Origin: an uncultured Nitrospirales bacterium
GTDB taxonomy: Bacteria; Nitrospirota; Nitrospiria; Nitrospirales; UBA8639
DNA length: 64,000 bases
Reading direction: 5' to 3'
NCBI GenBank assembly: GCA_951812745.1
Contig: OX638327.1
Location: 434,001 to 498,000 of the forward strand
How positions within the stretch are numbered: the first letter of the stretch is position 1; every line of letters starts with the position of its first letter. Both the position numbers and the translations under genes were made by a program. Under the pieces are notes generated by a model. That model did not search any database. It was given only the letters and a program-made list of their open reading frames with translations, and was not told the origin of the DNA. Shown here piece after piece: positions 42,616-55,437 of the stretch.

Positions 42616-43704
42616 ATGTTGCATCGACTCGCGCTCCGAGTGATTCCCCAACTGAATGAGGCTGTCACTGAAGCCGACGTTCGAAAGCGGAAGCGTTGGG
42701 TGATGCTTCTTCCGGGGTTCGTGGCGTTTATCCTCTACCGTCTCTCAAAAGACGTTCTTCCGCTATCGGACCCGATGGCGTTGTTGGCGATGAGCGGGGT
42801 CCTTGCGACGCTCACCGCGTATTGGGCGTACGCGAAGGGACGTCAGCAGACGCTTGCCCAGGTTTGCCAAACCGATGGTCCCGGCCGCCTTCTCTGGGTG
42901 GGTGGATGGATCGGGTTTGTTTACGGCGTGCAGCTTTCGTTGTTGGTGTTGGCGATCCTGGCCCTCTTTGCCAATTACAATTTTCTGCTTCATCCCGACG
43001 GGCCGGCTATGATGGCCCTGATTATTCCCTGTACGGCGGTCACCCGGGACGCTTTTGAAATCGGACACGTGGTCCGCATGGAATCCCAGGGCGTGCGCCT
43101 GGTGACTTTTCCCGACGGCCGGTCGTTTCGCGAATTACTCCAGCGTGACTTTTTACATCTGGCCCGATGGGTGGGAGCGGGGTTGGTTGCCGGTGGTACG
43201 ACGGCGGTCGTGTTTCGACTCGGCTGGACCGGCGACGGAAGTGATGTCGGACAGGCGATTCTGATTTGTGTCGTGGCGGCGTGTTTCGCTCACGGAGCTT
43301 TTCTGTCCGGAAAATGTCCTCTGGAAGATTTCTCGGACCGCTTCAAAATACCATCATGGTGGGAAGCTTGCCGGTTTTGGCTGTGGCCCTGTTTGACTTT
43401 TGCGTTTACATACTATTTAGTGCAATTTGGCCTCATTGCGTTTGTGTTGCAGGTTGAGGAGGTGCCCCTGTTCGTTCATTTGGCCGTTGGTGGAGTGACG
43501 ACGGGGATGATGGCGGGGTATGGCTACTTTTTAGGCGCGCGGGTTTTTGTAGAAGCGCAAACGCAGGGCGGATTCTCCGAGGGTTTGAGACGTTGTCCGT
43601 TCGTAATGGAAATTTTGGCCAAAACCGGGTGGGTGACATCGGGACCCAAGCCAAGCCCCGTTGAAATCAGGCAGGCAGAGCCCTCCCGAGACATGCTTCC
43701 ATGA
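42616..43704 (+). CDS. Hypothetical polytopic membrane protein
   Basis: The product is 362 aa with about eight membrane helices. Soluble parts include DGRSFRELLQRDF and KCPLEDFSDRFKIPSWWEA. I do not recognise a family. Its TGA overlaps the ATG of the bd-like oxidase gene (ATGA), so it is translated together with it, which suggests a part of, or an assembly factor for, that complex. Confidence 0.7.
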   Translation: MLHRLALRVIPQLNEAVTEADVRKRKRWVMLLPGFVAFILYRLSKDVLPLSDPMALLAMSGVLATLTAYWAYAKGRQQTLAQVCQTDGPGRLLWVGGWIGFVYGVQLSLLVLAILALFANYNFLLHPDGPAMMALIIPCTAVTRDAFEIGHVVRMESQGVRLVTFPDGRSFRELLQRDFLHLARWVGAGLVAGGTTAVVFRLGWTGDGSDVGQAILICVVAACFAHGAFLSGKCPLEDFSDRFKIPSWWEACRFWLWPCLTFAFTYYLVQFGLIAFVLQVEEVPLFVHLAVGGVTTGMMAGYGYFLGARVFVEAQTQGGFSEGLRRCPFVMEILAKTGWVTSGPKPSPVEIRQAEPSRDMLP

Positions 43705-45557
43705 AATTGTCCATTTTCCTGTTGTGCGTTCTGGGCTGTTCACTGCTCGCGCCAATGCCGGGGTGGGCCGGTCCGGATACACCTTCCCTTACTGAGGACG
43801 TCTATTATAAGACCGGCGGAATCCCTCAAGGCCCTCCGGCCGCGGAAACCGGAGCCACTTACCCCCACTGGCAACCGCTCAATAACCGGATCATCATCTG
43901 GCTCGTCACACAGCAGCATACCTATTTCGGCGGATTCGTTCTTGCCCTGCCGTTGTTTGCGTTTCTCCTGGAATTCTTAGGCCTGACCCGTCGTGACCCG
44001 CAGGCAGCCAAACGCTACGATGTACTCGGTCGCGATATTCTTCGCGTCGGGGTCCTCTCGCTCTCGGTCACGGCGCTGCTTGGCAGTGTCATGCTTGGCG
44101 CCTTTGTGACGTTCTATCCCGCTTTTATGAAATACATGGGATCGACGTTTAAGCAGATGATGCCGTTGTATGCCTCGGTGTTTTTAGGTGAATCCTTTCT
44201 CCTGGTCTTGTACTACTACAGTTGGGACCGTCTGGCCCGGGGCGCCGGGAAATGGGTGCATCTGTCGATCGGGGTCGTCGCGAATGCCATGGGTGTGCTG
44301 TTGCTCCTGTTGGCCAACTCATGGGCGTCTTTTATGATGGCGCCTGCAGGGGTGAATGCCGAGGGCCAGTTCCTGGGGAACGTCTGGCATTTATTGCATT
44401 CGCCGTTATGGAATCCGCTCAATGCCCATCGGTTCCTTGCGGACATCATGTCCGGGGGCGCCGTGGTCGTGGCCTATGCGGCGTATCGGTATTTGAAGAC
44501 CCGGGTCCAGGAGGAACGGGCGTATTACGATTGGGTGGGCTACGTGTTCATTGTCGTGGTGGTGTGCGCCTTGCTCCCCATGCCTTTTGCCGGGTATTGG
44601 CTAATGCGCTCCGTGTTTGAGTTCCGTCAGGAGATGGGTATGACCATGATGGGCGGGTTGTTGTCCTGGCTGTTCGTGGTTCAAGCCACTACCATCGGCG
44701 CACTGTTTCTCGGCATCAACTATTACATCTGGCAGTCCCTGGGACGGCTGCGTGACGGAGAACGGTATCATCCCTATTTCAAATTCATCCTCGGGGGGCT
44801 GATGGTGGCGTTTCTGGTCTGGTTCACTCCTCATACCATTGCCATGACCCCCAGCGAAATGAAAGCCATGGGCGCGGCGCAACATCCCGTCATCGGGCAA
44901 TTCGGGGTGATGTCCGCCAAGAACGGCGCCATTAATATCATGATCTGTCTGACGGCCTTGAGCTACCTGTTGTATCGGCGCGCCAATCGGATCATTACCG
45001 TCCCGTGGGCTGCGGTGGGTAACGTCGCGATCGGGGTCTTGTTCATCGCGGGCATGGCCAATATCGTATGGGTCGCGATTTACGGGTTTTTTATTCCCGC
45101 CCATATCCGGGTGGGTTTGTCCATTCCACAGGGGGCGACTACGGCGACGGTTCTGCTCGGAGGGTTGGTGATCAACCATTTTCTGTTGAAGGGGAGCGAA
45201 CTCCGAGGTCCCATCCAATGGGGCAGGATCTCCGTTCGAGGGATGGTGGCGTTGTTCGGGGTGGCCGCGACTTTTTCCTGGGTGATGGGGTTGATGGGCT
45301 ATATCCGGTCAGCCGGGCGGTTGGGGTGGCACGTGAATGAACTGATGGCGGATCTGTCCCCTTGGGCTTTTACCCCTCCCATTACTTTTGCCGCCAAAAT
45401 GGTGACGATCAACATGGTGTTGTTCTGGGTTTCGGTGTTTTTCATGTTTTGGTTGGCCACCCGGGACAAACAGCCGGCCCTCGTGGATCAGGATGCCCCG
45501 GCCGAAACCGGAAACGTCTCTTTCGTGCAGGCGTTCTCAAGAGAGGAGTCGGCATGA
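43701..45557 (+). CDS. Cytochrome bd-like oxidase subunit, paralogue 1
   Basis: The product is 618 aa with a signal peptide (LCVLGCSLLAPMPGWA) and about 14 membrane helices. A DVYYKTGG motif follows the signal. Histidines conserved with the protein at 49222 lie in QQHTYFGGFV, SPLWNPLNAHRFL, TPHTIAMTP, AQHPVIGQFGVMSAKNG and WHVNELM. It resembles CydA of cytochrome bd, but it is longer and has an exported N-terminus, as in the bd-like oxidases described in Nitrospira genomes. The expected role is terminal electron acceptance (O2 or another small oxidant) at the periplasmic face. No CydB is adjacent. Confidence 0.8.
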   Translation: MKLSIFLLCVLGCSLLAPMPGWAGPDTPSLTEDVYYKTGGIPQGPPAAETGATYPHWQPLNNRIIIWLVTQQHTYFGGFVLALPLFAFLLEFLGLTRRDPQAAKRYDVLGRDILRVGVLSLSVTALLGSVMLGAFVTFYPAFMKYMGSTFKQMMPLYASVFLGESFLLVLYYYSWDRLARGAGKWVHLSIGVVANAMGVLLLLLANSWASFMMAPAGVNAEGQFLGNVWHLLHSPLWNPLNAHRFLADIMSGGAVVVAYAAYRYLKTRVQEERAYYDWVGYVFIVVVVCALLPMPFAGYWLMRSVFEFRQEMGMTMMGGLLSWLFVVQATTIGALFLGINYYIWQSLGRLRDGERYHPYFKFILGGLMVAFLVWFTPHTIAMTPSEMKAMGAAQHPVIGQFGVMSAKNGAINIMICLTALSYLLYRRANRIITVPWAAVGNVAIGVLFIAGMANIVWVAIYGFFIPAHIRVGLSIPQGATTATVLLGGLVINHFLLKGSELRGPIQWGRISVRGMVALFGVAATFSWVMGLMGYIRSAGRLGWHVNELMADLSPWAFTPPITFAAKMVTINMVLFWVSVFFMFWLATRDKQPALVDQDAPAETGNVSFVQAFSREESA

Positions 45558-46581: not shown

Positions 46582-46637
46582 CGCCTGGACAGGAAGAGCG
46601 GGCGGTTGAACCCATATCGGGCATAGGAATCAGAATC

Positions 46638-47552
46638 ATGGAAAATCGCGGGGTGCTTATCGGCTCCATCATCTTTGTCTTTGCCTCGTTTATCTTGATG
46701 ATGGTCATGCTGATCTACGAAACGTACAAGGGGAAACAGGAGTTGGACCGGCTGGTTTCGAACTCGCAAACGGCCAAACCTCGGGTCATCACTCCGGTGA
46801 AAGTCAAGGATTTTTCGATGTATCGTACACTGGTCGGCGATGAAGGCCGTGAGATGGTCGAAATTCCCGAAGGGCCTTTTACCATGGGGCATGATCAGGA
46901 GGATCCCGATGAAGCCCCTGCGCATCCGGTGTACGTGCGGACGTACTTTATCGATCTGAAGGAAGTCACCCAGTCGGAATATGCGCGTTTTGTCAAGATG
47001 ACCAAGCGTGCGCAACCCCAGGTGCCGGTCTTTGAAGAAGACATTGCCAAACTCGTCGACCCGGATTTTCCCGTCGTAGGCATTGGCTGGAATGATGCCT
47101 TTGCCTATTGCCGGTGGGCGGGAAAGCGGTTGCCGACCGAAGCTGAATGGGAGAAGGCCGCTCGCGGTGAAGGCCGACGACTCTATCCTTGGGGGAATGA
47201 GTTCAGCTATATGGTTTCCAATATTGACGGGGAGGACGATGGGTTCAAGTATTTGTCGCCCGTGGGCTCTTTTGAAGGCGGGCGGAGTCCGTATGGGGTC
47301 TACGACATGACGGGAAACGTTGCCGAATGGGTTGCGGATACCTATGACCCTCAATATTATCAAAATTCACCATTTCGTGATCCTCCCGGTCCGGACAGTA
47401 CGGAATTTAAAGTCATTCGAGGAGGAACTTGGCGTGATTCCAAACTCAACGCGAGATTGACCAAACGGTTTTCAGCCAAAATGTGGCGAACCGACGCGAC
47501 GATCGGGTTTCGTTGCGCCAAAGACGTCGAGGCCGTCAAACAAGTATCCTGA
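46638..47552 (+). CDS. Membrane-anchored FGE-sulfatase-fold (SUMF1-like) protein 1
   Basis: The product is 304 aa from the ATG at 46638. One N-terminal helix (VLIGSIIFVFASFILMMVML) anchors an FGE/SUMF1-fold domain: VEIPEGPFTMG, KRLPTEAEWEKAARG, GVYDMTGNVAEWVADTY and a final TIGFRCA. True formylglycine-generating enzymes need a cysteine pair in the last third; here that region (GGTWRDSKLNARLTKRFS) has none. It is therefore a structural or binding member of the fold. A second copy of the type follows. Confidence 0.85.
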   Translation: MENRGVLIGSIIFVFASFILMMVMLIYETYKGKQELDRLVSNSQTAKPRVITPVKVKDFSMYRTLVGDEGREMVEIPEGPFTMGHDQEDPDEAPAHPVYVRTYFIDLKEVTQSEYARFVKMTKRAQPQVPVFEEDIAKLVDPDFPVVGIGWNDAFAYCRWAGKRLPTEAEWEKAARGEGRRLYPWGNEFSYMVSNIDGEDDGFKYLSPVGSFEGGRSPYGVYDMTGNVAEWVADTYDPQYYQNSPFRDPPGPDSTEFKVIRGGTWRDSKLNARLTKRFSAKMWRTDATIGFRCAKDVEAVKQVS

Positions 47553-47588: not shown

Positions 47589-48500
47589 ATGGATGGGAGA
47601 TTGAAACTGATCCTGCTTGCCGTGATTGTATTCATGGTAGGCATGCCGGTATCGGGCATTTTGCGTGGGACCAAATCTCCTCCCCCTGATCCCGAACTTG
47701 CGGAGGTTGTCGAATCCGTTCCGGCGACCGGGTCTTCTCCCTCCGCCCCACCCCAGCCGATCATCCAAGAAGAAATGGTGTTTATTCCTTCCGGGCAGTT
47801 TATTCAGGGGACCAGCCAGGGCGGGTTTAATGAACGTCCCGAACGTCTCGTGACGCTTGAGGGATTTTGGATTGATCGGTATGAGGTGACGAACCACCAC
47901 TATCTCGCCTTCGTGGAGCAGACCGGGCATCGAAAACCAGGCCCCCCGTCCCGCTATGCCAAACGGCTAGCCCAATTGCGTGGGCCCAATCAGCCTGTTG
48001 CCTATGTCTCCTGGTATGATGCCGATGCCTATTGCAGATGGAAAGGAAAACGTCTGCCCAAGGAAGCCGAATGGGAAAAGGCGATGCGAGGGATAGACGG
48101 CCGGTTGTGGCCCTGGGGAAACTCTCCGAGAATCCACAAGGCCAATCTGGGAGGGCGAGAAGATGGATATGAAGCCACGGCCTCCGTTGGCTCGTTCCCA
48201 TTGGATAGAAGCCCTTTCGGGGTGCATGACGGTTTTGGAAACCTGATGGAATGGGCCGACAATTGGTATGAAGAGCAAACTCGCCATCACAGTGAACCCG
48301 GAGAGGCGAATTTTGCCGATCGTGGGGGGTACAAGACTCTTCGGGGTGCCGGGTATACCAGCCATGGAAGCGACTTGAGGATTACGGCTAGAAATTTTAT
48401 GGTTCCCGATTTTCGGGATGAAACCATAGGCTTTCGTTGTGCCGCTGCGTCAGAGCGGAAGACCCCGGACCGCACGCTGGCCGCTGGTCCCCAGGATTAG
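47589..48500 (+). CDS. Membrane-anchored FGE-sulfatase-fold (SUMF1-like) protein 2
   Basis: The product is 303 aa. An N-terminal helix (LILLAVIVFMVGMPVSGIL) is followed by a proline-rich linker and the FGE-like domain: VFIPSGQFIQGTSQGG, FWIDRYEVTN, KRLPKEAEWEKAMRG, FGVHDGFGNLMEWADNWY and TIGFRCA. The catalytic cysteine pair of true FGE is absent. It is 36 nt after its paralogue on the same strand, and the two may form a heterodimer on the periplasmic side. The last part of the operon is unknown. Confidence 0.85.
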   Translation: MDGRLKLILLAVIVFMVGMPVSGILRGTKSPPPDPELAEVVESVPATGSSPSAPPQPIIQEEMVFIPSGQFIQGTSQGGFNERPERLVTLEGFWIDRYEVTNHHYLAFVEQTGHRKPGPPSRYAKRLAQLRGPNQPVAYVSWYDADAYCRWKGKRLPKEAEWEKAMRGIDGRLWPWGNSPRIHKANLGGREDGYEATASVGSFPLDRSPFGVHDGFGNLMEWADNWYEEQTRHHSEPGEANFADRGGYKTLRGAGYTSHGSDLRITARNFMVPDFRDETIGFRCAAASERKTPDRTLAAGPQD

Positions 48501-48652: not shown

Positions 48653-48769
48653 CTAGAGAAAGTCAAAGTAATACAGGATCAAAAAGACGGCTAAAAGAAT
48701 GTTGACAACCATTCCGGCCAACACTATAATGTCGAACAATTTTGCATTATTGCGCATGTGTTTTACCAT
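48653..48769 (-). CDS. Possible 38-aa single-helix miniprotein
   Basis: A minus-strand frame encodes a basic start (MVKHMRNNAKLFD) and one membrane helix (IIVLAGMVVNILLAVFLILY) ending near FDFL. It lies just upstream of, and divergent to, the bd-like oxidase operon. Ribosome-binding evidence is weak, and an upstream ATG at 48841 is possible. The call rests on the protein-like hydrophobic pattern only. Confidence 0.4.
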   Translation of the reverse strand: MVKHMRNNAKLFDIIVLAGMVVNILLAVFLILYYFDFL

Positions 48770-48822
48770 CTTCAGGAAAAGATGTGTGTTCAGTATCACA
48801 TCGTGGAGAAATGTGTCAAGCG

Positions 48823-48862: not shown

Positions 48863-48976
48863 ATGGCGAAAACTGATCCATTTCCAATCAAGCTGGGCAA
48901 AGGGATATTCTATGTGACCTGTGCCCTAAGTTTGTGGTTTTTTTATTGGCTTGCCGGCATCCAATGTCCTTGTTGA
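48863..48976 (+). CDS. 37-aa single-helix miniprotein upstream of the bd-like oxidase
   Basis: The frame encodes MAKTDPFPIKLGKGIFYVTC and following residues, with one tryptophan-rich membrane helix (LSLWFFYWLAGI) and a cysteine-containing end (QCPC). GGGAAG lies before the ATG. It is too short for usual gene finders. Position at the head of the oxidase operon recalls small subunits of bd oxidases (CydX/CydS), although no sequence similarity is claimed. Confidence 0.65.
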   Translation: MAKTDPFPIKLGKGIFYVTCALSLWFFYWLAGIQCPC

Positions 48977-49011
48977 AAAAAGGAACTGAGAGATAAACAG
49001 GAGGTTTTCAT

Positions 49012-49128
49012 ATGCAGACGGCTCTGTACCTCATCATTTCGATCGTGATTTCCGTGGCATATTTTCAGTTCATCGACTGGGCTCTGATGGATATGCAGGG
49101 CTTGGATTATTTCTATATTCTGAGGTGA
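49012..49128 (+). CDS. 38-aa single-helix miniprotein upstream of the bd-like oxidase
   Basis: The product begins MQTALYLIISIVISVAYFQF, a membrane helix followed by a short acidic-aromatic tail (IDWALMDMQGLDYFYILR). A perfect AGGAGG lies 6 nt before the ATG, strong evidence for translation. It sits between the 37-aa miniprotein and the oxidase gene, 93 nt before the latter's start. A role as a small oxidase subunit is inferred from position. Confidence 0.75.
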   Translation: MQTALYLIISIVISVAYFQFIDWALMDMQGLDYFYILR

Positions 49129-49221: not shown

Positions 49222-51183
49222 ATGGGTCGCCTCAAAAGTAGACAGGCCGGGAAGAAATTCCTGGCAGTCACTGGTCTTTTTGCAATGGGAGTCATGCTGT
49301 TACTCCCGATTTTTGTGGCACTGCCGGCCTTGGCCGGGGGTGCTCCCGCAGCAGGTGGGCCGCCTCCCGATGTCGTGGCCGCCCAAGAAGCCGAAGGGGT
49401 GGAAGGCGAAGAAGTAAAGGTCGAAATCGGGAGAGACGTCTACTACAAAACAGAGGGCCCTGCCGTCGGTGCGCCGGCTCCAAAGACTGCCGATACGGAA
49501 GAATTTTATCCGCGATATAACTTCGAAAGCCGGGTCCTTCTTTGGGTGGCCAATCAGCAGCATCTGTACTATGGTAGCTTTGTGTTGGCCGTGCCGATCT
49601 TCTGTATGTGTATCGAGTTTGCCGGGTTGGTGAGCAAAGACAAGGCGATGGCGAAGAAGTATGACCAATTGGCATATGACTTTGTTAAAATCAGCCTGAC
49701 CGCCTACTCGCTGACTGCCATCCTCGGTGGTATTCTCATCTTTACGTTCCTGACGTTGTATCCTGCCTTCTTTGGGTACCTTTCCAGCATTTTCCGCCCC
49801 GTGATGCATATCTATGCCTTGATGTTCGTGGCGGAAAGCGGAACCCTCTACATCTATTATTATGGATGGGACAAGATGAAAGATGGGTTGTTGAAATGGC
49901 TCCATTGCAGCATGTCGGTGGTGTTGAACGTCATTGGGACGGTGTTGATGTTCCTGGCCAATTCCTGGATTGGCTTTATGATGTCGCCCGCAGGCGTGGA
50001 TGAGCAGGGACGCTATCTGGGAAATATTTGGCATGTCATCCATACGGCGCTCTGGAATCCTCTGAACGTGCATCGGATTCTTGGGAATATGGCCTTTGGT
50101 GGTGGCGTGGTGGCGGCGTATGCTGCGTATCGGTTCCTGTCGGCAAAGAACGATGAAGAGCGTGCCCATTTCGATTGGATGGGATATATCGCGATGTCGC
50201 TGGGCGTGGCCTTCCTGATCCCCCTGCCGTTCGCCGGCTATTGGCTCATGCGCGAGGTGTATGCGTACCGTCAGCAAATGGGAATTACCTTGATGGGCGG
50301 GCTGTTGGCTTGGTTGTTCATCATTCAGGCCACCATGATCGGCATCCTGTTTTTGACGACGAACTATTATCTCTGGCAAGCCCTCGGAAGAATGACCGGG
50401 GGAGAGAGGTTCCAGCGGTATATCAAGTATTTTGTGTTCATTTTAGTCGTCGGACTGTTGGTCTTTATCACTCCCCATACCATCGTGATGACTCCGGCTG
50501 AATTAAAGGCCATGGGAGGCCAGCAGCATCCGGTGTTAGGGAACTATGGCGTGATGTCGGCTAAAAATGGGGGGATTAACGCGATTATCATGACCACGAT
50601 CGCCAGTTTTATATGGTATCAGCGTGGCAATAGAGTGCCGGCGGTGAAGTGGGCAAAATTCGGAAATATCTTCCTGATCACCTTCTTCGTGGTGGCCCAT
50701 CTGAATAACATTTGGGTGGCCTGTTACGGGTATTTCATCCCGGCGAACGTTCGAATCGGCCTCTCTGTTCCGCAGGTGGCCGGAACGCTTTCGTGCTTAT
50801 TTTTCGGATCGGCGTTAAATCTGGCGATGTTGAGTAAGTCCAGGGAACTCGGACCGATTCGATGGGGTCAGATCGCGCCACGTTCACAGTATGCCCTGAT
50901 TATGTTGGCAACGGCCTTTACGTGGATGATGGGATTGATGGGGTATATCCGGTCATCGGTGAGGTTGTTCTGGCACGTCAATGAGATTATGCGGGACAAT
51001 TCGCCTTGGGCGTATACGCATACCATTGGGTTTGGGGCGAATGTGATCTCCTTTAACGTGTTGTTCTTCTGGATTACGATTCTGTTTGTCTTTTGGCTTG
51101 GAGCGCTGGGTGCCAAGAAAGCGCCCGTGCCCGCGACGCAACCCGTTCCGGGTGCCGCGCCGCAACCTGCAACTGGTCATTAA
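49222..51183 (+). CDS. Cytochrome bd-like oxidase subunit, paralogue 2
   Basis: The product is 653 aa. The ATG at 49222 has AAGGAGG upstream and is preferred to the TTG at 49189. A signal peptide (FAMGVMLLLPIFVALPALA) is followed by a DVYYKTEG motif and about 14 helices. It is collinear with the protein at 43701, sharing the histidines in QQHLYYGSFV, LWNPLNVHRIL, TPHTIVMTP, QQHPVLGNYGVMSAKNG and WHVNEIM. It adds a Pro/Ala-rich tail. It is the core of an operon with miniproteins and cytochromes c. The expected job is reducing O2 (or another acceptor) with electrons from periplasmic cytochrome; the acceptor is not proven. Confidence 0.82.
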   Translation: MGRLKSRQAGKKFLAVTGLFAMGVMLLLPIFVALPALAGGAPAAGGPPPDVVAAQEAEGVEGEEVKVEIGRDVYYKTEGPAVGAPAPKTADTEEFYPRYNFESRVLLWVANQQHLYYGSFVLAVPIFCMCIEFAGLVSKDKAMAKKYDQLAYDFVKISLTAYSLTAILGGILIFTFLTLYPAFFGYLSSIFRPVMHIYALMFVAESGTLYIYYYGWDKMKDGLLKWLHCSMSVVLNVIGTVLMFLANSWIGFMMSPAGVDEQGRYLGNIWHVIHTALWNPLNVHRILGNMAFGGGVVAAYAAYRFLSAKNDEERAHFDWMGYIAMSLGVAFLIPLPFAGYWLMREVYAYRQQMGITLMGGLLAWLFIIQATMIGILFLTTNYYLWQALGRMTGGERFQRYIKYFVFILVVGLLVFITPHTIVMTPAELKAMGGQQHPVLGNYGVMSAKNGGINAIIMTTIASFIWYQRGNRVPAVKWAKFGNIFLITFFVVAHLNNIWVACYGYFIPANVRIGLSVPQVAGTLSCLFFGSALNLAMLSKSRELGPIRWGQIAPRSQYALIMLATAFTWMMGLMGYIRSSVRLFWHVNEIMRDNSPWAYTHTIGFGANVISFNVLFFWITILFVFWLGALGAKKAPVPATQPVPGAAPQPATGH

Positions 51184-51264: not shown

Positions 51265-52581
51265 GTGGTTGAATTAATTACGGAAGCGATCTCGATTGGA
51301 TGGCCGGCATTCGCCTTTTTGCTAGGGCTTTTGGTGTATTTTCAGGCGAAATTGACCGACCCGGTTCAAAAGAGAAATGTCACGTTTAAGACGTTTATCG
51401 GTATGCTGTGCGCGTTCATGGCCTTTATGGCCATTGCGAATTACAAGAATAATTTCTACGGGGAAAGCCGTCTGCTGCCCGTCTCATTGGTGATGATTAC
51501 CTGTTTGGCCTACATTATGGGTATTTACTTCACCAATATCGGGGCCCTGATGAAAATTGGCGGGTTCATGTTTTTCGTGGCTGCGGCGCTGTCCGGGTAT
51601 GGCAATTGGTTGCCTCAGGTAGAAGGAGGATTCCCTCCCCCAGAGGTGAAGTTGGACTTCCAGAGTATGACTCCTCAGCAACTGGGCGATGAGGGTGAAA
51701 AAATCATTTTTGGCGGTCTTGGCCAAAGTAAGGTCCAGGGGGCTATCGGGAAGGGCCAATGTCCCTTGTGCCATGGGTTCAATCAGGGATTCCTGAGTGA
51801 ACGGGCTCCGAATCTTTGGGACATTCCGGCCCGGGCGGAAGAACGGTTGAAGCACGAAAAATATCATATGAACGATCCTGCTTCACGGGATACGGTGCAA
51901 AAAGAGTCGTTTGAGGGATCGGGGACAGCCACGACCGGGCAGGAATATATCGCCGAGTCACATGCCTGTCCGAATTGTTTCGTCGTGCCGGGATTCGGCG
52001 TGAAAGGAACAAACGACACGGAAAGCCCCATGCCCAGAATTCACAAGCCGCCGATTTCACTGACCCTTGGAGAATTGGCCGCGGTGGATACCTGGCTGTA
52101 CGTTCGTGAAGGGAAGGAAGCACCGACGTACGAGGAAATTCAAGCGTCGTATGAAAAATTCATTCCTGAAGGAGACCGACCTCAGGCAAGTTCCGGGGAT
52201 GAAGCCGCAGCAGGCGGCGTGCTGGCTACCGGTGAGGAGCCTATTACGGATCTCTTCATGAAAGCGGGTTGCCCTGCCTGTCATACGATTCCCGGCATAG
52301 AAGGAGCAACCGGAAAAGTAGGGCCTTTGTTGATGGAAGGGAGTAATGCTCCGCAACGGTTGAAGGATCCGGGGTATAACGGACATGCGACGTCGACCCG
52401 TGAATACATCACCGAGTCGATTTTAAATCCCAGCATGTACGTGGTGAAGGATTTTCCTGACAATCAGATGCCGAAAGATTTCGGGCAAAAACTCAGTGCA
52501 GGGGCCGTCAATAAAATCGTGGATTATCTGTCCAGTTTGAAAGAGGGACAGGATCTGCCTTCGATAGAAGATTTCAATTAA
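51265..52581 (+). CDS. Membrane-anchored diheme cytochrome c
   Basis: The product is 438 aa from a GTG at 51265 with GGAGG 6 nt upstream. Four N-terminal helices are followed by two c-type cytochrome domains with heme sites CPLCH (166-170) and CPACH (336-340). Each domain later has a Met-ligand-like MP motif (SPMPRIHKPP; NQMPKDFG). A CPNCF pair at 235-239 is in the first domain's loop, not a heme site. It probably feeds electrons to the bd-like protein encoded just upstream. Confidence 0.85.
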   Translation: MVELITEAISIGWPAFAFLLGLLVYFQAKLTDPVQKRNVTFKTFIGMLCAFMAFMAIANYKNNFYGESRLLPVSLVMITCLAYIMGIYFTNIGALMKIGGFMFFVAAALSGYGNWLPQVEGGFPPPEVKLDFQSMTPQQLGDEGEKIIFGGLGQSKVQGAIGKGQCPLCHGFNQGFLSERAPNLWDIPARAEERLKHEKYHMNDPASRDTVQKESFEGSGTATTGQEYIAESHACPNCFVVPGFGVKGTNDTESPMPRIHKPPISLTLGELAAVDTWLYVREGKEAPTYEEIQASYEKFIPEGDRPQASSGDEAAAGGVLATGEEPITDLFMKAGCPACHTIPGIEGATGKVGPLLMEGSNAPQRLKDPGYNGHATSTREYITESILNPSMYVVKDFPDNQMPKDFGQKLSAGAVNKIVDYLSSLKEGQDLPSIEDFN

Positions 52582-52621: not shown

Positions 52622-53587
52622 ATGACCTGGTTAAAGTTAGTCGAAGGCTACATGCCGATGCAGATGATTTCGGAGTTGGCCGGTTCGATTTTGGTGTTTG
52701 CGTTGGTGAATTGGGCGCTGAATCGGGCGGGCATGGGGATTCCCAAGTTCTGGGCCGGAGTCGGGGTGTGGATCTACATCCAGCTCTATCTGAAGTACCG
52801 TATTTATCCGCCAATCCCGTTTAGTGTGCGGGCCATCTACGGCACAGTGTCGGGGTGTGGGATATTCATGTGGGTGTCCGGCTCGGAAGGCGAGTGGCAG
52901 GAGTTCAAGCGGCCGATTCTCAACGTGATGGATGGGATCAGCGGCTTTCACAAGGGCATGCGCACGGCGGCGTTAATCGTGATTCCCTTGGCGTTGGGGG
53001 GCTTTGCCTACAGTTCGTTCTTGCCCAGTTTTGAAGAACCGATCGAGTTGCGTACGGTGCATCCGGCGCCGCCGGCGACCACGAAAGTGCACGGCAGGAC
53101 CTTTGTGCTGCAAGTGGTGGAGAATCCCTATCGGGTGAACAACGATGGCAAGTACGACCAGGCGTTTACGGATGCGCGGATCGTGGAGCAGGCCATGGGG
53201 CGGTTGATGAAGGACGTGAACGACCCAAACTACAATCCCTGGGATCCCAATGCGGAGGGCTACATCAAATACGTGCGGGAAGGCGGCGAGATCTTTTTTC
53301 AGAACTGCCACTTCTGTCACGGAGACAATTTGAATGGCCGGGGGCTGTGGGCCTATGCGTTCAACCCCATTCCGGCGAATTTCACGGACGCGGGCACGAT
53401 TGCGCAGTTACAAGAGACGTTTGTGTTCTGGCGGGTGTCGAAAGGTGGGATCGGGCTGCCGGGCGAAGGATTCCCCTGGGCTTCGGTCATGCCGCCGTGG
53501 GAGCAGCACCTGACCGTAGACGAAATCTGGAAAGTGGTGATGTTTGAATACTGGCACACGGGCTACTATCCCCGGACCTGGGATTAA
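52622..53587 (+). CDS. Membrane-anchored monoheme cytochrome c
   Basis: The product is 321 aa. N-terminal and middle helices (about residues 20-36, 42-57, 71-86 and 115-131) anchor a C-terminal cytochrome c domain with one heme site (CHFCH, 229-233), followed by FPWASVMPPWEQHLTVDEIW containing the Met ligand. It is next to the diheme cytochrome gene and the NxrC-like gene. It likely links them to the oxidase. From about here the operon becomes more GC-rich. Confidence 0.85.
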   Translation: MTWLKLVEGYMPMQMISELAGSILVFALVNWALNRAGMGIPKFWAGVGVWIYIQLYLKYRIYPPIPFSVRAIYGTVSGCGIFMWVSGSEGEWQEFKRPILNVMDGISGFHKGMRTAALIVIPLALGGFAYSSFLPSFEEPIELRTVHPAPPATTKVHGRTFVLQVVENPYRVNNDGKYDQAFTDARIVEQAMGRLMKDVNDPNYNPWDPNAEGYIKYVREGGEIFFQNCHFCHGDNLNGRGLWAYAFNPIPANFTDAGTIAQLQETFVFWRVSKGGIGLPGEGFPWASVMPPWEQHLTVDEIWKVVMFEYWHTGYYPRTWD

Positions 53588-53610: not shown

Positions 53611-55437
53611 ATGAGCAAGAGCAGATATGGAATCAACGTCGCCCGGTTGGGCGTGTGCCTTAGCCTCAGTGTCCTGCTGGGGTTGGGGTTGCCCCTGAGC
53701 AGCGGTGCGCAGGAGGACCTCCCGGAAGGCTTCAAGCAGCAGGGCTTACCAGCGCCCTTGCCGGCTGAGCAGATCGAAGCGGGCAAGCGGGTCTACTTTA
53801 CCAAATGCGTGTGGTGTCACGGGGTGGAAGGGGCCGGGGACGGCCCGGGGGCGGTACGGCTCTGGCCGCGGCCGCGGAACTTCAACGCCGGCACCTTCAA
53901 GATCCGGCACACGGCCAGCGGGCAATTACCGCTGATCGACCTGGACCTCTTGCAAACCGTCACGCACGGGCTGCCGGGGTCGGCGATGCCGTCGTGGGAA
54001 GGCATTCTCACGGAGCAGCAACGCAAGGACGTGCTGGCGTTCGTGACCTCGCAATTGGTGCAGGACCGGTCGTGGCAAGACGAAGAATTTGAAGAATTTT
54101 TCGTGCTGGAGCTGGATCAACTCGCCCCGAAAGAAGGCACACCGGAGTCCATCAAGCGGGGCTCGGAATTGGTGGTGGAGAAGAAATGCATCGAGTGTCA
54201 CGGGCTGGAAGGCCGGGGTGACGGGAACGCGTTCAACCTGAAGGACGATTGGGGCTTCAGCATTCAACCGGCGGACTGGCACAAATGCTGGAACTTCCGG
54301 GGCAGCCGGCAAGATCCGTACAATGTGAAGAACATTTTCCGTACCTTCTCCACGGGACTGAACGGCACCCCGATGCCGTCGTTCGCGGACAACACGAGTG
54401 TGGACGAACGGTGGGACATCGCCAACTACGTCAACTCGCTGTGTGAGCGGGAGCAGGAGATCAAAGCGCCGCAAGGCACGGTGACCGACGAGATCGCGCT
54501 TACCTTCTCGACCTCGCAGCCGCTGGGGATCGATCCTTTAACGGACAAGCCCAAGAGTAACTTTGTGGTTCCATCGAAATTCGTGGAAGGTGACCTCCCC
54601 ACGGACGAACACGACGAGCGCTGGAACCTGATTCCGCGGCGGTGGATCGCCATGGGCGGGCAGATTACGCATAAGCCGAGGAACTTCGTGAACCGCATTG
54701 ACGATATGTGGGTGCGAGCGTTGTATAACGAAACGCACATCGAGTTCATGTTCCGGTGGGACGACCGGACCAAGAGCATTCAAGAGGATGAAGTGGACTG
54801 GGATCCCACGGAAGTGAACCTGGAGGATTATGGGGTGGAAGAACAAGCGCCGCAAGGCACGACGTTTGAAGAAGACCCCTTCCATCAGGAGTCGATTGCG
54901 GCCAAGCAAAAAGACGGGTATGCGGTGTACAACGACGGAGTGGCCTTCCAATTTCCCATCAAATGGCAGGAACTACCGGCGCCCAGGAAGCCACGGTATT
55001 TCTGGGGGGACGAAAGATTTGCCGCCGACATTACCAAATGGACGGCGGATGGGACCCTAGGGGTGTACGAAGGCACGGGCTGGGATGAAGACTTCACCGA
55101 AGTCGACTTTCAGGAGGAAGTCGAAGTGGTGAAAGCCGAGTGGGCCAACGGGCAGTGGACGGTGATCGTCAAGCGACCCTTGAAGGGGGACTACGACGAA
55201 GTCGCGTACCTGGAGCAGGGCAAATACATCCCGATGGTCTTCTTTGCCTGGGACGGGCACAACGGGGACGTGGGCCGGAAGATGGCGGTGTCCGCGTTCT
55301 ATTACCTGGTGATGGAACCCCCGATTCCGATGAGCACGTACATCTATCCGGGGCTGATTACCGTCGGCATCGTGATTATTGAAGGTTGGGTGTTAGGGCG
55401 GCGCGCCAACCGGCGCAAGGCCAAGGGCCACGCCTGA
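53611..55437 (+). CDS. Diheme cytochrome c with ethylbenzene-dehydrogenase-like (NxrC-like) domain
   Basis: The product is 608 aa with a signal peptide (CLSLSVLLGLGLPLSSGAQ). Two cytochrome c domains carry CVWCH (66-70) and CIECH (193-197). Residues about 310-570 are an ethylbenzene dehydrogenase-like heme-binding fold (RWIAMGGQITHKP, VRALYNETHIEFMFRWDD, AFQFPIKWQE, VFFAWDGHNGD), as in NXR gamma subunits. A C-terminal helix (YPGLITVGIVIIEGWVLG) anchors it. It closes the operon. It is probably the electron-entry module from nitrite oxidoreductase or another periplasmic enzyme; this is inference. Confidence 0.85.
   Translation: MSKSRYGINVARLGVCLSLSVLLGLGLPLSSGAQEDLPEGFKQQGLPAPLPAEQIEAGKRVYFTKCVWCHGVEGAGDGPGAVRLWPRPRNFNAGTFKIRHTASGQLPLIDLDLLQTVTHGLPGSAMPSWEGILTEQQRKDVLAFVTSQLVQDRSWQDEEFEEFFVLELDQLAPKEGTPESIKRGSELVVEKKCIECHGLEGRGDGNAFNLKDDWGFSIQPADWHKCWNFRGSRQDPYNVKNIFRTFSTGLNGTPMPSFADNTSVDERWDIANYVNSLCEREQEIKAPQGTVTDEIALTFSTSQPLGIDPLTDKPKSNFVVPSKFVEGDLPTDEHDERWNLIPRRWIAMGGQITHKPRNFVNRIDDMWVRALYNETHIEFMFRWDDRTKSIQEDEVDWDPTEVNLEDYGVEEQAPQGTTFEEDPFHQESIAAKQKDGYAVYNDGVAFQFPIKWQELPAPRKPRYFWGDERFAADITKWTADGTLGVYEGTGWDEDFTEVDFQEEVEVVKAEWANGQWTVIVKRPLKGDYDEVAYLEQGKYIPMVFFAWDGHNGDVGRKMAVSAFYYLVMEPPIPMSTYIYPGLITVGIVIIEGWVLGRRANRRKAKGHA

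Follow-up and report, generated by a model that had tools for sequence, protein, structure and literature searches.

Background

Two short open reading frames stand just before a bd-like oxidase gene in the genome of an uncultured Nitrospirales bacterium, and the question raised by this locus is whether they encode proteins and whether such proteins belong to the oxidase. The nitrite-oxidizer literature calls the bd-like oxidase beside the alternative NxrC enigmatic. In canonical bd oxidases, CydX, CydH and CydS are small single-helix subunits, and the E. coli enzyme reportedly shows no activity when its small subunits are missing (PMC8324918). The window, i.e., the whole stretch of 64,000 nucleotides analyzed here (positions 434,001 to 498,000 of contig OX638327.1, assembly GCA_951812745.1), was compared with 80 related loci, the nearest relatives being Nitrospirales MAGs, and the phylum was surveyed in 198 genomes, the searches being confined to Nitrospirota.

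The oxidase and its gene cluster

The genes of the locus are arranged as follows:

43701-45557: bd-like oxidase, probably bd-like_4, sharing about 50% identity with the one at 49222-51183
46632-47552 and 47589-48500: two FGE/SUMF1-domain genes (PF03781), directly upstream of m3
48653-48757, minus strand: m3, single-helix miniprotein of 34 aa MRNNAKLFDIIVLAGMVVNILLAVFLILYYFDFL
48863-48976, plus strand: m1, single-helix miniprotein of 37 aa MAKTDPFPIKLGKGIFYVTCALSLWFFYWLAGIQCPC; ATG start
48999-49004, plus strand: Shine-Dalgarno AGGAGG of m2, read from the sequence, 7 nt before the m2 ATG
49012-49128, plus strand: m2, single-helix miniprotein of 38 aa MQTALYLIISIVISVAYFQFIDWALMDMQGLDYFYILR; ATG start
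49222-51183, plus strand: bd-like oxidase of the "bd-like_3" type, predicted CydA fold, 653 aa, Gln435/Phe583 variant (PF01654)
51265-52581, plus strand: membrane-anchored cytochrome c, 438 aa (PF00034; synteny in relatives)
52622-53587, plus strand: membrane-anchored cytochrome c, 321 aa (PF13442/PF00034; synteny)
53611-55437, plus strand: alternative NxrC, 608 aa (PF00034, two copies; PF09459)

The oxidase matches PF01654 with an E-value of 7.5e-20, and its AlphaFold2 model (pLDDT 81.6) scores Z 31-35 against ten CydA structures; judged by this model, the protein has the CydA fold and falls within the cytochrome bd superfamily. The first-pass annotation, which had described the operon as that of a bd-like oxidase, was right in this respect, but the protein is a Gln/Phe variant within an alternative-NxrC cluster and no ordinary bd oxidase. 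The ligand columns hold Gln435 and Phe583 in the window oxidase, and His in bd-like_2 and in the relatives of lineages f11, f16 and f17; the complete set of proposed haem/CuB His ligands that marks bd-like_2 (NIDE0901-type) is not found in the window protein. Identical Gln/Phe substitutions are reported for a conserved bd-like oxidase cluster (PMC8026999), and in the light of that account it is doubtful that the window oxidase reduces O2.

The alternative NxrC combines two cytochrome c domains with an ethylbenzene dehydrogenase/DMSO-reductase-gamma-like domain, and matches TIGR03477 with a score under the curated cut-off. With a bd-like oxidase, two cytochromes c and an alternative NxrC, the operon has the gene content of the bd-like_3/alt_NxrC_2 cluster of N. 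moscoviensis, which ranks in the top 40 there by strength of transcription (PMC6606698). The Gln/Phe substitutions are likewise common to the window oxidase and to the Nitrospira/Nitrospina/anammox cluster, whose conservation in Nitrospina and in anammox bacteria has been noted (PMC3578206, PMC8026999). In the open-access literature searched, accounts of the bd-like_3/alt_NxrC_2 cluster mention neither the miniproteins nor a promoter within m3; frames of such small size are easily missed in gene calling, and other work may include them under the label of hypothetical proteins.

The two FGE-domain genes remain linked to the bd-like_3 oxidase across the class. A plastocyanin-like gene is also found in the locus, and in relatives it is linked along with them.

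Three miniprotein genes under purifying selection

The frames of 37 and 38 codons that had been annotated upstream of the oxidase are both real, at 48863-48976 and 49012-49128, and they prove to be two of three, as the opposite-strand frame that had been listed as a further candidate at 48653-48769 is also a gene, and the most conserved of the set. An in-frame ATG does occur at 48769, yet the conserved start Met of m3 lies at 48757. Good ribosome sites had been claimed for m1 and m2; m2 has a perfect one, while that of m1 is only moderate in the window (GAGG) and reads AAGGA in near relatives. The claim of one membrane helix each is borne out for m1 and m2 and extends to m3, each having a single hydrophobic stretch of sufficient length for one helix, and all three lie in the size range of CydX-like proteins, with a single short helix in about 30-40 residues. 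In six loci (L038, L045, L062, L063, L071 and L075) m2 is extended at its N-terminus by a further hydrophobic stretch, for a total of 68-97 aa, and may there be a two- or three-helix protein.

Among the 80 related loci, m1 is present in 76, m2 in 77 and m3 in 75, and in each case of absence the contig ends before the gene; chance would not come close to such a recurrence. Within 14 close genomes, the third codon positions are the most variable, and dN/dS amounts to 0.085 for m1, 0.068 for m2 and 0.016 for m3, compared to 0.021 for the oxidase; identity in the spacers FGE2-m3 and m1-m2 falls to 54-57%. Thus, m1, m2 and m3 are protein-coding genes under strong purifying selection. In Nitrospirales, m1 is invariant at G12, K13, F16, Y17, T19, F27, Y28, W29, G32, C35, P36 and C37, and m2 at F18, M26, Q29, G30, L31, D32, Y35 and R38, where QGLD forms a conserved stretch and an Arg stands close to the C-terminus, while m3 is near-invariant from FDII onward. 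The C-terminus of m1 reads CPC in all Nitrospirales; most of the remaining lineages carry a His close to it, possibly an exchange of one metal ligand for another; speculatively, this terminus could serve as a metal or haem ligand.

Since m1 and m2 are short frames that immediately precede the oxidase in the same predicted operon, they might instead regulate its mRNA, as leader peptides or translational couplers. This is very improbable, given the strong amino-acid conservation of the hydrophobic helices with their invariant polar ends, and the m1-m2 spacer, which varies across loci. In addition, the region upstream of the oxidase holds no terminator-like element, an Rfam search of the leader returned nothing credible as a known RNA family, and m1 occurs alone elsewhere (genome G141, described below).

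Relation to CydX and other known families

Searches of Pfam, NCBIfam and PDB sequences with the miniproteins gave chance-level matches only; those to Syndecan and Adeno_E3B were below the cut-offs and were rejected. None of 124 miniprotein members has a CydX-type Pfam match, and hhalign of the three family alignments (A1, A2 and A3) against E. coli CydX yields probabilities of 9.0, 0.1 and 0.5%. By sequence, m1, m2 and m3 are therefore not recognizable as CydX homologues. The comparison with CydX and CydS that had been drawn at the outset is plausible as one of role; since the miniproteins are unlike CydX in sequence, it does not extend to family.

Which oxidase the miniproteins follow

Across the 198 genomes, the miniprotein families track the ox3-type oxidase, and a genome without such an oxidase (G179) is also without all three. 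Families elsewhere in the class Nitrospiria have an oxidase that is about 62-65% identical and is directly preceded by m1 and m2. Their m3 gene lies on the other strand, in some loci (L097, L098 and L100) between the FGE-domain genes and in others (L105-L107) between FGE2 and m1; in one genome (G155) it stands beside FGE1 on a contig other than that of the oxidase (L099 and L108). In two further lineages (L104 and L136-L138) the order m3-m1-m2-oxidase-cytochrome is collinear on one strand, the miniproteins of L136-L138 having been detected by profiles built without them.

It is with this collinear order that the miniproteins persist in other Nitrospirota classes. In one lineage (L113, L110 and L144) m1 is present, m2 occurs in two of the three loci and m3 is absent; lineage f17 has m1 and m2 and no recognizable m3, which counts against reading the three as subunits. 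Linkage to a CydA-type gene was found in all loci with sufficient upstream sequence. Conservation in relatives that carry the operon, which had been named beforehand as the test of these frames, is thus seen at the level of order, class and phylum.

In a tree of 46 oxidases, those accompanied by miniproteins lie on one branch (SH-aLRT 99), and miniproteins are absent only beside duplicated copies nested in that clade; the tree comes from a quick search and includes some long branches, so that the clade claim is one of a single strongly supported branch together with synteny. Among the small frames beside bd-like_2, no conserved miniprotein was found, and those frames that do occur overlap other genes. 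No miniprotein precedes the bd-like_4 gene of the window, where the start of the oxidase overlaps the end of the preceding gene and thus leaves no space for one. The relatives in f11, f16 and f17 that have miniproteins keep His at both ligand positions, which ties the miniproteins to the oxidase lineage regardless of the completeness of the proposed active site. These distributions argue strongly that the miniproteins go with the bd-like_3 oxidase lineage and not with bd-like oxidases generally.

Two further observations count against the subunit reading. No miniproteins were found beside the extra ox3-type oxidase copies, and no bd-like oxidase was found near the stand-alone m1 of G141, in the 16 kb fetched. 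The extra copies without miniproteins of their own (L141, L142 and L143, of genomes G189, G187 and G050) are 73-77% identical, and in L142 an FGE-domain gene lies directly upstream. The stand-alone gene, a second m1 at 7677-7922 of L102, has a longer N-terminus and adjoins a Coq4-like frame. Weak matches with E-values of 8e-4 to 0.01 (m3 in G033, G076 and G084, m2 in G194, and m1 in G098) were set aside as chance; of these regions, the contig carrying the oxidase of G098 (L112) was the one checked, and it holds no miniproteins.

Probable small subunits, possibly assembly factors

That three proteins of one helix each accompany a single CydA-fold protein points to small subunits. Like CydX, CydH/CydY of E. 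coli and CydS of Geobacillus, they would be small single-helix membrane proteins that accompany a protein of the CydA fold (PMC8324918). The likeness has its bounds, as three families, apparently unrelated to one another, are encoded here, upstream of the CydA-like gene and without sequence similarity to CydX. Unlike in canonical bd oxidases, their partner would be a bd-like protein together with cytochromes c, and there is no CydB gene within the operon.

It is thus probable, from the patterns of sequence and synteny, that m1, m2 and m3 are small structural or assembly subunits of the bd-like_3 membrane complex, with opposing promoters setting the proportion of m3. The complex would consist of the CydA-fold protein, the two cytochromes c and the alternative NxrC, joined by the three miniproteins. 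These most likely pack against the helix bundle, as do CydX, CydH and CydS in canonical bd oxidases, and by binding the bd-like_3 oxidase they may stabilize or complete its haem or metal sites. That they reside in the complex we infer by analogy. Should they do so, attempts to purify, model or express the bd-like_3 complex without the three miniproteins may fail, in view of the inactivity reported for the E. coli enzyme when its small subunits are lacking.

A different role, to which we assign a small though appreciable likelihood, is that of transient assembly or haem/copper-insertion factors which do not stay in the complex. The CPC end of m1 (His elsewhere) would then be a site of metal delivery or redox activity, and both its invariance in Nitrospirales and the His close to the C-terminus in most of the remaining lineages speak for such a function, as do the plastocyanin-like gene and the two FGE-domain genes, which are linked in relatives. 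However, m2 and m3 are without a conserved cluster of metal ligands, and the three miniproteins are kept in parallel to the oxidase with no other recognizable maturation genes, a pattern that fits subunits better.

A promoter within the m3 gene

Two promoter-like elements face each other in and beside m3:

48702-48730, plus strand: perfect sigma-70 promoter TTGACA-N17-TATAAT, inside m3 on its antisense strand and directed toward the operon of m1, m2 and the oxidase
48790-48819, minus strand: opposing promoter for m3, with TTGACA (48819-48814) and an extended -10 element TGnTA

The element within m3 matches the consensus at 12 of 12 positions in 75 of 76 loci, including the window, and at 11 of 12 in the remaining one. 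Perfect matches with a spacer of 16-18 nt number eight in the single-contig genome of 2.35 Mb, compared to none for a reversed control pattern. The m3 codons that lie under the hexamers (ATT ATA; GTT GTC AA-) show no variation where the encoded amino acid is constant, while neighboring third positions vary. ATA is frozen in m3 in this way, although it encodes 4% of the Ile residues in the oxidases of the same loci. In the oxidase alignment, which served as a control, none of the 224 amino-acid-invariant columns is equally fixed, and the highest share reached by a single codon is 0.86. The corresponding m3 positions in other families of the class are not promoter-like, and the arrangement thus appears to have arisen with the order. 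The very high transcription reported for the N. moscoviensis cluster (PMC6606698) fits a consensus promoter.

The promoter of 29 bp accounts for part of the DNA conservation of m3, and it might be supposed that the frame was kept by accident of a promoter on the other strand and encodes no functional protein. We consider this extremely improbable. Beyond the hexamers, m3 varies freely at synonymous sites and not in its amino acids, as reflected in its low dN/dS; moreover, the protein is conserved in lineages that have no promoter within m3, and where the gene is placed elsewhere or shares the strand of the oxidase. Thus, m3 exists as a protein independently of the promoter. In Nitrospirales, the same bases would then bear both coding and promoter information throughout an entire order, a clear natural case of such double use.

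Opposing promoters and predicted transcript overlap

The pattern TTGACn-gap-TGnTA occurs on the minus strand of the m3-m1 spacer in all 76 loci, with a spacing of 17-18 nt apart from a single 19, and in 0.2% of shuffled spacers. As a plain sigma-70 promoter, the element matches at 10 of 12 positions in the window and mostly at 9-10 of 12 across the loci, which looks weak, but it is consistently of the extended -10 type. Both promoter sequences are conserved, and we infer that they are in use and that they regulate the genes on either side.

In Nitrospirales, the oxidase operon would be read rightward from the promoter within the m3 coding sequence, and m3 leftward from the opposing one. Based on promoter positions and usual start-site distances, the two transcripts are predicted to overlap at their 5' ends by about 50 nt (mostly 44-63 nt). 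As each polymerase crosses the promoter of the other, interference or duplex formation is to be expected, and transcriptional interference, duplex RNA or both would probably set the ratio of m3 to the remaining components or switch between them. The fuller proposal is that of a face-to-face switch, in which the m3 codons are frozen by the antisense operon promoter and the opposing promoter couples m3 levels to oxidase levels in all Nitrospirales; on the sequence patterns, we see its chances as even.

The arrangement is comparable to that of the excludon (PMC7154746), in which neighboring genes on opposite strands have opposing promoters and mRNAs that overlap at their 5' ends, as is also predicted here. 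It differs in that both genes appear to serve one complex, such that regulation by overlap would probably balance the parts of a single assembly, and in that the codons of one gene also spell the promoter of the other, which stays fixed there across an order.
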